DNA of 64,000 nucleotides from Clostridiales bacterium (GTDB taxonomy: Bacteria; Bacillota; Clostridia; Christensenellales; Borkfalkiaceae): the NCBI GenBank assembly GCA_015055525.1, contig SVHZ01000003.1:1-64000 (forward strand), read 5' to 3'. A program made the position numbers and the translations under genes. Shown here one piece after another: positions 11,090 through 58,855 of this stretch. The notes under the pieces are model-generated. The model ran no database searches and had not been told where the DNA came from. It saw only the letters and a program-made list of their open reading frames with translations. Positions within the stretch are counted from its first letter, which is position 1. Each line of letters opens with the position of its first letter.

Positions 11090-11126
11090 AAAAAAACCTC
11101 CTAACGAGGTCCACTTAGTCAATAAT

Positions 11127-11222
11127 AAAGCGGACGCGCCCTCAAACCGCAACGACTTCTATCGTTTTCGTTCAAGGACGACATCCCATTCCTTGACACT
11201 TAACGCTATCGGGCTACTCTTT
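11127..11222 (-). ncRNA. tetrahydrofolate (THF) riboswitch
   Basis: Minus strand AAAGAGTAGCCCGATAGCGTTAAGTGTCAAGGAATGGGATGTCGTCCTTGAACGAAA...GCGGTTTGAGGGCGCGTCCGCTTT: conserved core (GCGUUAAGUGU...AAUGGGAUGUCGUC...AACGAA), CAAGGA/TCCTTG stem, AAAG/CTTT closing pairs, upstream of folT. Confidence 0.92.
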
Positions 11223-11299
11223 TTTTTATTCATTATACCACCCTTTATATATTTTTGCAACTTTTACATAATATTAAATTAAATTTACATAATAAAATT

Positions 11300-37987: not shown

Positions 37988-38797
37988 ATGAACAAGTATT
38001 TTAATGAGCAATCTAACATATTAATCACGGGCGCTTCTTCTGGGATAGGCAAAAATTTGGCTACCCTACTTATTAAAAAATACGGCGCTAAAGTTTTAGG
38101 CGTTGCCCGTAACCAAGAAAAACTTCAAGCAGTAAAAGAAGAACTTGGCGATAATTTTAACTATATAATAGCCGACGTTGGCATTGAAACGGAGTGGCAA
38201 AAAATTAAAAATTATATAGAAGAAAACAAAATTTCTATAAACGGCGTTATAAATTCCGCGGGCGTACTCCCTAAGTTTTCAAGTTTTAACGGCGAGTATT
38301 TCGACTTAAATAAAAAAGTTATCGACGTTAACTTTTTATCGGTTGTTTACTCTGCAAAGTATATGCTACCCGTTATTGAAAATCAACCCAGCCCTATTAT
38401 GATAAATATATCAAGTTCCGCAAGTCTATGCCCGTTTGCAGGAATTTCACTCTACTCGGCAACAAAATCTGCAGTAACAAGATTTTCAGAGTGCTTATCC
38501 TTTGAAAATAAAAAGGTTAGTATCGTTACCGTTATGCCGGGATTTACCAAAACTGAAGTTATGCGCAATCAAGCACTTGATAAAAAGGAAAAGGGTTTAA
38601 TCGATAAAATTTCCGCAAACCCTATAAAAGTTGCCAAAAAAATTATAAGAAAGGCAAGTAAAGGTAAAAAACGAATAATTACGGGGTTTGACGCCTATCT
38701 TATGAATTTTATGTATAAGTTCTTTCCGCGTACTGCTCCCCGCCTTATAGGTTGGTTTTTAAGAAAAACTAAAATGAAAGTATTTGAAAAAATTTAA
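37988..38797 (+). CDS. short-chain dehydrogenase/reductase
   Basis: ITGASSGIGKNLA, NSAG, YSATKSAV. Confidence 0.9.
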   Translation: MNKYFNEQSNILITGASSGIGKNLATLLIKKYGAKVLGVARNQEKLQAVKEELGDNFNYIIADVGIETEWQKIKNYIEENKISINGVINSAGVLPKFSSFNGEYFDLNKKVIDVNFLSVVYSAKYMLPVIENQPSPIMINISSSASLCPFAGISLYSATKSAVTRFSECLSFENKKVSIVTVMPGFTKTEVMRNQALDKKEKGLIDKISANPIKVAKKIIRKASKGKKRIITGFDAYLMNFMYKFFPRTAPRLIGWFLRKTKMKVFEKI

Positions 38798-38798
38798 C

Positions 38799-38830
38799 AA
38801 AAAAACGAGTTCAGTTTGAACTCGTTTTTT
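38799..38830. terminator. bidirectional intrinsic terminator
   Basis: AAAAAACGAGTTCAGTTTGAACTCGTTTTTT between convergent genes. Confidence 0.85.
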
Positions 38831-38834
38831 ATTG

Positions 38835-40052
38835 TTATTTCTTAAGAGTTTGCAAGTAGTCACCAATTTCGTACATTGCATTTTTAAGAGTTTGATGCTC
38901 TGGGAGCATAACTACTCTGAAGTGGTCGGGCTTGGTGTAACCAAAGCCAGAGCCTGCAACTACTAAAATCTTCTTTGCTTCAAGCAAGCCTCTAACGAAC
39001 GCTTTATCATCAGTTACGTTAAATCTTTCGGTGTCAATTTTCGGGAAGATATAGAACGCACCGTCGTTAGGAACTACCGATAAACCGTCAATTTCATTAA
39101 TCGCTTCGATGCACGCTTTTCTTTGAAGATAAAGTCTACCAGTTTCACCAATCATTTCGTTAGTGTAATCAGTATCTTTAAGCGCGGTGGGGATAATAAG
39201 TTGCATAAGAGCGTTTGAGCAAAGTCTAACAGACGCTAAAACTACGAGAGCCTTGTTAAGTTCTTCCATTTTAGCACTCTTACCGCTTAAGCAAATCCAA
39301 CCGCATCTTAAACCGCATAAACAATGTGATTTTGATAAACCGTTTAAGGTTACAATGTCAAGATCCGGCGCAAGTTTTGCAAAAGAATTGTGAACTTTAC
39401 CATCGAAAACAAGTCTATCGTAAATTTCATCAGAGAAAACGATAATGTTGTTTTGGCGAGCAATTTCAGCAATTTCAAGTAAAACGCTATCGGGATATAA
39501 AACGCCCGTTGGGTTGTTTGGGTTAATAACAACGATTGCTTTAGTTCTCTTTGAAATCTTGCTCTTGATATCTTCGATATCAGGGCTCCAATTTAATTCT
39601 TCAACGCAATTATAAAATACAGGTTTACCGCCTGCCGCTATAACTGAGTTTGACCAGAGTGAATAGTAAGGGCTTGGCATTAAAACTTCGTCGCCGTCGC
39701 TAACGAGCGCTTGGGTTAACATGCTTGCCGCTTCACTAACGCCGTTAGTAATAAACACGTCGTCAGGTGTAAGACCGGGAACGCCTTTAGAAGTTTCGTA
39801 TTCAACGATTGCTTGTTTAGCGATAGGCATACCTCTTAAATCACAGTAACCTAAACCCTTTTCAACGTTGTTGATAATTTGATTTTTAATAGATTCGGGC
39901 ATTTTGAAACCGAAAGTTGCAGGGTTACCCGTGTTGAGTTTTAACACCTTTTGACCTTCCGCTTCCATTTCTAAAGCTCTAAAGAAAATAGGACCACGAA
40001 TATCAGAGTGGATATTTTCAAGTCTATCAGCCATATAATTAAACTTTTTCAT
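38835..40052 (-). CDS. class I/II PLP-dependent aminotransferase
   Basis: LNTGNPATFGF, VINPNNPTGVLYP, FSDEIYDRLVF, LNGLSKSHCLCGLRCGW. Confidence 0.92.
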   Translation of the reverse strand: MKKFNYMADRLENIHSDIRGPIFFRALEMEAEGQKVLKLNTGNPATFGFKMPESIKNQIINNVEKGLGYCDLRGMPIAKQAIVEYETSKGVPGLTPDDVFITNGVSEAASMLTQALVSDGDEVLMPSPYYSLWSNSVIAAGGKPVFYNCVEELNWSPDIEDIKSKISKRTKAIVVINPNNPTGVLYPDSVLLEIAEIARQNNIIVFSDEIYDRLVFDGKVHNSFAKLAPDLDIVTLNGLSKSHCLCGLRCGWICLSGKSAKMEELNKALVVLASVRLCSNALMQLIIPTALKDTDYTNEMIGETGRLYLQRKACIEAINEIDGLSVVPNDGAFYIFPKIDTERFNVTDDKAFVRGLLEAKKILVVAGSGFGYTKPDHFRVVMLPEHQTLKNAMYEIGDYLQTLKK

Positions 40053-55826: not shown

Positions 55827-56094
55827 TACTGCGATAGACGGGGAGTTAGCGGTGCCCTGTAACTTGCAATCCGCTATAGCAAGGTTGAACGTCTTCCGCG
55901 GTCTTTGTTATGGAAGGCTGGGCTTTGAAAGAAACGTTGACGTTAAGGTCTTATGCAACGGCAACCCGTGAACCGTGTCAGGATAGGAATATAGCAGCAC
56001 TAAGCGGTATAGTCGTGTGCCATAAGGTAGCTTTGACTGAGTTTTGATTGAAGTTTTCGCTTCGGTTTCAAATATCAGAGTTGATTCGCAGTAT
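55827..56094 (+). ncRNA. ffs: bacterial large signal recognition particle RNA
   Basis: GGGGAGTTAGCGGTGCCCTGTAACTTGCAATCCGCTATAGCAAGGTTGAA 5' domain; GTCAGG-ATA-GGAA-TAT-AGCAGC apical loop; CGTGTGCC; termini TACTGCGA/TCGCAGTA pair; upstream TTGATT-N17-TAAAAT. Confidence 0.92.
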
Positions 56095-56980: not shown

Positions 56981-57203
56981 AATCTTGCAAAACACAAGCG
57001 TAAAAACTTTTACGCCATCAAGCACGGAAGACTGTTTTGAAATTATAATTTACCTTAAAGAAAACCCCGCTCTAATCTCTCTAAAACAAGCCAATAAGGC
57101 GGTTAAACAGAGAATTATAGACGTTTTGTGCGGAGCGGCAACTGCCTATCAAATGGGCGTTTGCATGGTAGATAAAAACAATATTTTGATAATAAAAAAG
57201 TAG
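56964..57203 (+). CDS. sepF: cell division protein SepF
   Basis: 79 aa DUF552-like: EIIIYLKENPALISLKQANKAVKQRIIDVLCGAATAYQMGVCMVDKNNILI; overlaps yggS end. Confidence 0.82.
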   Translation: MEEGIKILQNTSVKTFTPSSTEDCFEIIIYLKENPALISLKQANKAVKQRIIDVLCGAATAYQMGVCMVDKNNILIIKK

Positions 57204-57246
57204 CGATAAAAGGGAGTTTACCGTAGGGATTTTTTAGGATATTATA

Positions 57247-57275
57247 AAAGGATAGCGAAATTTTCGCTATCCTTT
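57247..57275 (+). terminator. intrinsic terminator
   Basis: AAAGGATAGCGAAATTTTCGCTATCCTTT. Confidence 0.75.
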
Positions 57276-57345
57276 ACTTTTTGCCTTGCAAAACACACGA
57301 CTTTCATTTGAAAGTATAGTGTGCTACACTTTCTCTTTTACATTA

Positions 57346-58224
57346 TTAACCTAAAATTTGTTTCTTTTTTTCTTCAAATTCTTCGTGAGTAATTATCCCT
57401 TCGTCAAGTAATTTTTTATATTTAATTAAAGAGTCAACGCTCTCGTCAGATATTTGATTTTCAGGAATTTTATTCATGTTTTCTTTACTTTTTGACATTA
57501 TGTATGAATGTACCTTTTCCGCATTGAACTTGAAATTAAAACAATTACTGCTAGCATATAAAGTAGGATAATTATTATTTTTGAAAACAAACTTATAATA
57601 AGACAAATCACGCGTTTCTGTTCTTGATGAGTTCGCTATAGCAGCAGCAGTACCATATATGGCCGCATCAACGGCAACACTAGAATTAGATTTTGTTGTT
57701 GTATACGTTTTTTTGTTTTCACAATATTCTATATATAATAAATCTTCTTCAGGAATAAAATATTTGCTTAAATTTTCTATTGATTCATAAGGTAATTTTG
57801 TCTTAATATCATTAAGCAATTCATCAGTTAAACACACATCAATAAACGCTTTAGATAAATAAGTCTCATCATGCGGAACGACAACAAATAAACGTTTTCC
57901 ATCAAAATCATACAATTTTAAAGTAAAACTTGAAAAGCTATGATTTATTTCGTTTTTATCTAAAACATTATAAACCGTCGAGGAAAACATTTGATTAATT
58001 AATGAGCGACTATTAAACCAAAATTTTTCAAGACTAACATTATATTTCTTCTCAAAGTCAATGCAAACTTTATTGTTGAAAACATTTTTAAATTCAACAG
58101 AATTTTTGTTTGCAGTACTTTCTTTAAAATCTTTATTTTCTTTAGCGGAAGAAATAATATTTCCTATACAAAAGTATATACACAAACCCAGTAATATTAC
58201 AAAAAAACCAATAATGAAACCCAT
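57346..58224 (-). CDS. SHOCT-domain membrane protein of unknown function
   Basis: N-terminal TM; C-terminal DSLIKYKKLLDEGIITHEEFEEKKKQILG (SHOCT). Confidence 0.8.
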   Translation of the reverse strand: MGFIIGFFVILLGLCIYFCIGNIISSAKENKDFKESTANKNSVEFKNVFNNKVCIDFEKKYNVSLEKFWFNSRSLINQMFSSTVYNVLDKNEINHSFSSFTLKLYDFDGKRLFVVVPHDETYLSKAFIDVCLTDELLNDIKTKLPYESIENLSKYFIPEEDLLYIEYCENKKTYTTTKSNSSVAVDAAIYGTAAAIANSSRTETRDLSYYKFVFKNNNYPTLYASSNCFNFKFNAEKVHSYIMSKSKENMNKIPENQISDESVDSLIKYKKLLDEGIITHEEFEEKKKQILG

Positions 58225-58243
58225 AAAACCCCCTAAAAAAACA

Positions 58244-58454
58244 AAAAATGCGCCTACCGAAGTAAGCGCACAAAAACACAGACTCCGATAGTCGCCAAAC
58301 TAACTTTACGCAAAATGGTGTAACCACAATAGCACAAGTAGAATCTGCATTTTATCAAATTCAATAATACTATTGTGGTAAAAATAGATATAATTATCCC
58401 TATAAAAAAAGAAAATTACACCACAAGAATTGCGTTTATTTAGTTAGTTTGGCT
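58244..58454 (-). ncRNA. putative structured ncRNA / 5' leader with terminator upstream of SHOCT gene
   Basis: Minus-strand promoter TTGATA-N17-TATAAT (58461-58489), start at base of a 12-bp stem GCCAAACTAACT/AGTTAGTTTGGC, nested TGGTGTAA/TTACACCA and CCACAATAG/CTATTGTGG helices, then TGCGCTTAC-TTCG-GTAGGCGCATTTTTT. Confidence 0.65.
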
Positions 58455-58510
58455 ATAGTTATTATAGCACTTATAAAAAGTTTTATCAAGTGTTTTAGCG
58501 TGGGTAAAAG

Positions 58511-58540
58511 AAAACTCGACTTGTGTGAAAGTCGAGTTTT
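58511..58540 (-). terminator. intrinsic terminator of atp operon
   Basis: AAAACTCGACTTGTGTGAAAGTCGAGTTTT. Confidence 0.75.
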
Positions 58541-58594
58541 ATAAATAGTTTAATTTAAATCCCTATGGAAAGAGCGGTAAGCCTACTTTTTTTG

Positions 58595-58855
58595 TTATTT
58601 TTTCCACTTAAAAGAGCCGGATGCTAGCGTTACCGAATCTTTTGCAACGGATAATAACCCGCCGTCAACGGAACCTAACTTAACACCGCTTTCAAGTTCT
58701 ATTTTAACTTCACAAGGAACTATTCCCGTTACGAAAGGAGCATGCCCTGCCATAACTGCAAGTTCGCCTTCGGTTCCGCGAAGTCTTAAATATATTGCCT
58801 CTCCACTAAAAACGTTGCCGTCGGGAGAAGTTATGGTTAGATTAAATTTGTTCAT
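58595..58855 (-). CDS. atpC: F-type ATP synthase epsilon subunit, short form
   Basis: FNLTITSPDGNVFSGEAIYLRLRGTEGELAVMAGHAPFVTGIVPCEVKI...; last gene of atp operon; 86 aa. Confidence 0.9.
   Translation of the reverse strand: MNKFNLTITSPDGNVFSGEAIYLRLRGTEGELAVMAGHAPFVTGIVPCEVKIELESGVKLGSVDGGLLSVAKDSVTLASGSFKWKK

Follow-up and report, generated by a model that had tools for sequence, protein, structure and literature searches.

A putative family of cis-acting transcription attenuators, absent from Rfam 15, precedes unrelated accessory genes in Clostridia and lies in a mobile cassette at one atpC terminator

What is the structured stretch that precedes a SHOCT-domain gene on the minus strand of this window (the whole 64,000-nt stretch of DNA that was analysed), and does it belong to that gene alone? 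A preliminary description had read it as a new attenuator- or riboswitch-like leader controlling the SHOCT gene. The near-consensus promoter that it named, TTGATA-17-TATAAT, lies at 58461-58489 (-), agrees with the consensus at 11 of 12 positions and has a TG before the second hexamer; the transcript is predicted to start at 58453, the first base of the closing helix P1 and one base away from the start first proposed (~58454). P1, the 12-bp helix of that description, pairs GCCAAACTAACT (58442-58453, -) with AGTTAGTTTGGC (58294-58305, -), and its three nested inner helices were all located on the minus strand, where they were read from the sequence as ACGCAA/TTGCGT (58435-58430/58313-58308), TGGTGTAA/TTACACCA (58423-58416/58323-58316) and CCACAATAG/CTATTGTGG (58378-58370/58332-58324). 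The apical hairpin carries a conserved element, GAATTTGATAAAATGCAGATTCT (58340-58362, -), in which at least six of seven pairs are present in 148 of the 161 distinct leader copies collected for the analysis. An intrinsic terminator with a UUCG tetraloop and a T-run, GTGCGCTTAC-TTCG-GTAGGCGCAT-TTTTT (58243-58271, -), is followed, in the order already described, by the Shine-Dalgarno sequence and start codon AGGGGG-TTTT-ATG (58222-58234, -) of the SHOCT gene (57346-58224, -), whose product of 292 aa has an N-terminal hydrophobic segment and a C-terminal SHOCT domain (Pfam match 1.5e-8, above the family cutoff). The predicted fold of the 234-nt leader has an energy of -75.6 kcal/mol, compared with -44.5 +/- 4.5 kcal/mol for shuffled sequences (z -7.0), and was equalled by none of 200 shuffles.

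Searching the same genome with the DNA of the window leader returned more leaders, each before a different gene. Model R1, which represents the 3' half of the leader, was built from alignment A2 and used for searches of further genomes; it matched 166 of 301 genomes of the GTDB family (17 of 18 genera), 60 of 297 genomes of the order and 88 of 391 genomes of the class (E<=1e-4), with up to nine leaders per genome in the class search among the best nine candidates scored. The carriers found by pattern scan are gut and rumen Clostridia MAGs and the cultured Pumilibacter intestinalis (L262). Rfam 15 (4227 models) gave nothing at the gathering threshold over the leader, whether in the window, at 20 further loci or at 18 class-wide loci, and a scan of 57900-58700 at E<=10 returned sub-threshold matches only. 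The only Rfam matches in the window are a THF riboswitch at 11126-11223 (-; 66.2 bits) and the bacterial large SRP RNA at 55829-56091 (+; 161 bits); a weak R1 match at 38793-38860 (+; 24.5 bits) is probably due to chance. No description of the leader was found in open-licence papers. The leader is a new RNA family that belongs to no Rfam 15 family and, judged from its sequence, is of the transcription attenuator kind. About one fifth of the sampled Clostridia genomes carry this putative regulator, which Rfam 15 does not list. The leader was not found by blastn of phage and plasmid records, and an exact-pattern scan of viral contigs yielded three matching contigs with one common sequence (L190, L191 and L192), in which the leader and a zinc-ribbon gene stand directly upstream of terminase genes, a slot typical for a phage accessory gene. 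A phage route therefore exists and is rare at exact-pattern stringency.

Comparison of the 161 copies revealed four recurring pairings: P1, a pseudoknot, an antiterminator and the terminator. The pairs of P1 are kept in 90-98% of 150 copies through compensatory changes, with AT, TA, CG and GC all occurring at position 8, and the length from P1 to P1 is nearly constant (median 153.5 nt, interquartile range 147-159). The pseudoknot joins the apical loop (5' strand 58353-58340, -, part of the apical element) to GGAGTTTGCG, immediately 3' of P1 (3' strand GGAGTCTGTGTTTT, 58273-58286, -); its cells are paired in 98.6% and 96.6% of cases in two alignments, with two-sided changes at nine of ten pairs in each, and those of the terminator in 99.2% and 98.9%, both structures having already been part of the model behind the alignments. 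The antiterminator, which was not part of that model, pairs CTATCGGAGT (58282-58291, -) with ACTTCGGTAG (58254-58263, -), a strand made up of the terminator loop and part of both terminator arms; its cells are paired in 95.4% and 92.3% of cases, against at most 51% when slid, although its outermost pairs fail in some copies, at the variable pair in 15 of 85. An alignment-free test in which strands were swapped between copies, and which ignores kinship among the copies as do the covariation and shuffle tests, favoured the cognate pairs for P1 (z -35), the pseudoknot (z -5) and the antiterminator (z -16), the cognate mean being reached by none of the swap sets. The small effect for the pseudoknot is explained by its nearly invariant sequences. 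Covariation in homologs, named beforehand as a test in the preliminary description, is thus strong for P1, the pseudoknot and the antiterminator, and the proposal of a structured leader is borne out. The pseudoknot (58353-58340/58286-58273), the antiterminator (58291-58282/58263-58254) and the insertion ends discussed below are additions to that account, and one of its elements has to be reinterpreted: the sequence GACT-ATCGG-AGTC is present, and rather than forming an isolated hairpin it contains the strand common to the pseudoknot and the antiterminator.

The pseudoknot and the antiterminator compete for this common strand, GGAGT, and the antiterminator takes up terminator sequence; the three states are therefore mutually exclusive. 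Their mean predicted energies are balanced, at -17.0 kcal/mol for the antiterminator, -16.7 kcal/mol for the pseudoknot and -15.6 kcal/mol for the terminator, and the leader accordingly has the layout of an expression platform in which terminator and antiterminator compete. The promoter keeps its register with P1: a promoter with at least 8 of 12 consensus matches ends 3-11 nt before P1 in 142 of 149 copies, against 7% of random positions, and in 128 of those 142 the distance is exactly 6 nt. The most strongly conserved parts are the switching strands together with the A-rich loop and the GA linker; apart from the loop, the pseudoknot and the linker, nothing resembling a conserved ligand pocket was recognised.

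It is highly probable, in our assessment, that the leader belongs to an uncatalogued family of cis-acting transcription attenuators that act as portable modules controlling the expression of accessory genes, carried here in a mobile cassette. Sequence and covariation establish where the promoter sits, the four pairings with their mutual exclusivity and near-equal predicted stability, and the presence of a downstream gene on the same strand; we infer that the pseudoknot corresponds to the OFF state and the antiterminator to the ON state, and that an effector tips the balance between them. Transcription would begin at the first base of P1, and P1 together with the variable rod and its one-sided bulge would bring the apical loop back towards the P1 base. 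Pairing of the loop AAAATGCARATTC with GGAGTYTGYGTTTT 3' of P1 would sequester that strand, let the terminator form and leave the gene OFF. With the loop unpaired, GGAGT and the preceding CTATC would pair with ACTTCGGTAG of the terminator, and polymerase would read into the cargo gene, giving the ON state. The leader would in this respect work like the expression platform of a riboswitch, with ligand binding as a putative role.

Riboswitches of the c-di-GMP-II type in Clostridia likewise combine a 5' leader, a long-range pseudoknot and a terminator/antiterminator platform, and they often precede surface or accessory genes. The resemblance to pseudoknot riboswitches (c-di-GMP-II, THF) extends to the 5' position, the long-range pseudoknot and the alternative terminator and antiterminator; the present leader differs from them in having no Rfam match, other conserved sequence and cargo beyond one pathway, and in the direct pairing between its apical loop and the switching strand. 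Folding of a terminator/antiterminator leader also governs mobile-element cargo in tet(M) of Tn916 and in the erm leaders, attenuators that rely on a translated leader peptide and serve one resistance gene. By contrast, no conserved leader peptide was seen here, and a single leader family is found before a great many unrelated genes. Attenuation through a leader peptide was considered and rejected on the grounds that the AUG in the loop is variable (T to C in 21 copies) and the reading frame is not kept.

The genes behind the leader do not bear out the original proposal of a control element specific to the SHOCT gene. They encode zinc ribbons, BspA repeats, lipoproteins, EcoRI-type and other methylases, HTH, SHOCT, Ltp and bacterial PH proteins; 116 cargo proteins match 61 Pfam families, led by zinc ribbons (11), LRR_5 (10) and EcoRI methylase (6), a spread on which a coherent metabolic regulon was rejected. 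In a class-wide sample a Shine-Dalgarno sequence and an ORF follow the leader in 34 of 42 cases, and many of the products, judged by reading, are of secreted or surface type. A regulatory leader is thus reused on many unrelated accessory genes and is not bound to one pathway. What signal such genes might share becomes the question, and a cultured carrier, Pumilibacter intestinalis, makes it accessible to experiment. The cargo has no obvious common pathway, and the ligand can therefore not be guessed from the genes. A small molecule or ion has a nearly even chance of being the effector; a protein is a doubtful candidate, folding kinetics with no dedicated effector a somewhat weaker one still, and an RNA acting in trans is improbable.

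The alternative that best survives these data is a constitutive or kinetically set attenuator that has no dedicated effector and does no more than hold newly arrived mobile genes at low expression, insulated from their neighbours. The absence of a conserved pocket and the mixed accessory cargo speak for it, as does the placement of the window unit, which brings its own terminators on both sides and sits within a host terminator (see below). Three alternative helices, a pseudoknot and a near-constant size, however, exceed the needs of a weak terminator, and we regard this explanation as unlikely. Less probable again, to the point that we give it little credence, is an independent small RNA of ~210 nt, 6S-like or trans-acting, past whose terminator the gene would be incidental. 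Such an RNA would account for the leader having its own promoter, a very stable rod and a strong terminator, and for the first copy in some tandems having no gene directly behind it. Yet a Shine-Dalgarno sequence and an ORF stand on the same strand in 147 of the 161 copies, 124 of them within 60 nt (median distance of the ORF past the terminator 22 nt), and the antiterminator, which a stand-alone RNA would not need, covaries with the terminator. The 6S covariance model, like all other Rfam models, gave no match, and with this the 6S-like alternative raised in the preliminary description loses its footing.

In the window the leader and the SHOCT gene form one 1.3-kb single-gene insertion with its own ends. 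The insertion splits the host atpC terminator into a 5' half, AAAAAAAGTAG (58583-58593, -), and a 3' half, CTACTTTTTT (57194-57203, -), identified by comparison with a relative (genome G005, locus L312) in which atpC is followed by the uninterrupted terminator AAAAAAAGTAG..CTACTTTTTT and then by the sepF/yggS side, the leader/SHOCT unit being absent. At the left end an inverted repeat, CTCTTTCCATAGGGATTT (58557-58574, -), recurs at other leader-gene units; the pattern CTCTTYCCNWAGGGA has three occurrences in the genome, all at the ends of such units, and TAGGGATTT is found 108-115 nt before P1 in nine copies. The left repeat is followed by an insulating terminator, AAAACTCGACTT..AAGTCGAGTTTT (58511-58540, -), which the left-end profile built from related cassettes shows to be conserved. 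The right end (57221-57340, -) comprises a hairpin, CACACTATACTTT..AAAGTCGTGTG, a terminator (57275-57247) and a right repeat, AAATCCCTACGG (57232-57221), which also recurs at other leader-gene units; the right-end profile matches the window at E=1.3e-30, the window copy itself being included in the profile. The same right end is present in 86 of 201 family genomes, where it accompanies a wide range of other single genes, often in the absence of the leader, and a T-run follows it within 50 nt in 44 of 49 cases, compared with 19% of random positions, as expected for insertion in terminator hairpins. Exact 9-mer ends occur on both sides of only four copies among the 161 leaders, and the leader is therefore not confined to cassettes. 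The module of the window is part of a 1.3-kb cassette that sits within the atpC terminator loop, and the leader family extends beyond this cassette. The leader is unusual for the breadth of its unrelated cargo and for this partial link to mobile cassettes.

The mapped ends bear on two further explanations, both very improbable. One, a concern already voiced in the preliminary description, is that a MITE or other DNA repeat has the P1 arms as its terminal repeats, with RNA structure as a by-product; the element is indeed multicopy in many genomes and the window unit has terminal inverted repeats. The true terminal repeats, however, are found beyond the promoter on one side and behind the gene on the other; covariation is seen in P1, pseudoknot and antiterminator, and a Shine-Dalgarno sequence and ORF nearly always follow. 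The part of that concern that stands is that the whole unit is a mobile cassette with inverted repeats; the part that falls is the role of the P1 arms, which vary with compensation, lie more than 100 nt inside the ends and were rejected as element boundaries, the boundaries being ~110 nt ahead of P1 on one side and past the gene on the other. The other, an attC-like folded-DNA recombination site that captures the genes behind it, would explain a conserved foldable element before unrelated genes, and the P1 ends GCCAAAC/GTTTGGC show what we take to be a loose resemblance to integron core sites, yet it is a poor fit to a leader with a conserved promoter, terminator, antiterminator and Shine-Dalgarno sequence, whose copies are scattered, with no arrays seen, and whose mobile-unit ends map elsewhere.

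The cassette encodes a single cargo gene, and its ends are the same as those of a recombinase-encoding element: a 9.6-kb element at L372:4686-14251, bounded by CGCTCTTCCCATAGGGATTT and AAATCCCTAAGAGAAGAGCG, carries beside its left end a gene for a 553-aa protein with Resolvase, Recombinase, Zn_ribbon_recom and DUF4368 domains. In the window's own genome a degenerate recombinase remnant lies next to the end motif TAGGGATTT. A DUF4368 large serine recombinase acting in trans is the probable mover of the cassette, an enzyme class suggested by the shared ends. DUF4368 marks a multi-targeting, TndX-like clade of large serine recombinases, and the domain architecture of the L372 protein is the one reported for that clade (PMC10083194); the word 'terminator' is absent from the main text of that paper. 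MIC and other non-autonomous cargo elements similarly hold a gene between terminal inverted repeats, have no transposase of their own and share their ends with autonomous relatives (PMC3913671). The cassette resembles them as a single gene between inverted repeats with an autonomous relative that has the same ends, and differs in its partner, a large serine recombinase, in its target, intrinsic-terminator hairpins, and in having terminators on both sides and, in some copies, an RNA leader. No description was found in open-licence papers of single-gene cassettes that have such matching ends and sit in host terminators. An insulated cassette that settles in intrinsic terminators would allow genes to be acquired with little harm to the neighbours. 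The broadest reading, to which we give tentative and less than even credence, is a new riboswitch class, widespread in Clostridia, that responds to one common cellular signal and passes between genes as a plug-in module for accessory and mobile cargo, sometimes in recombinase-mobilised cassettes in terminator loops.

Several further observations concern the copies themselves. A 77-aa protein (MKKK.TNEEVG..IAEKI..DMDYEFRVAQSQMWIAENDL..) recurs behind the leader at L050, L052, L064, L040, L134, L148 and L172. At L057, L089, L102, L164, L040, L182, L396 and L261 the leader occurs in tandem, the copies standing a few hundred bases from each other and in most cases without an intervening gene. The ends of contigs C21 and C4 of genome G000 overlap by 108 identical bases within a leader copy (L004/L002), which indicates a single locus split by assembly. 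The cassettes at L322, L323 and L341 have the same ends and another promoter-leader, starting AATAAACTCA(C/A)CGATAAATAAGAATTT, before acetyltransferase-like or HTH-type genes; Rfam has no match over this leader, which is possibly a second leader family. Finally, the left end at L345 belongs to a cassette with a far shorter leader, GCGCTACACAATGGGCGGAACTGCGTTTTTCGGTGCGTGGTTTCGGCTACGCAC and a T-run, which may be the same switch in minimal form.
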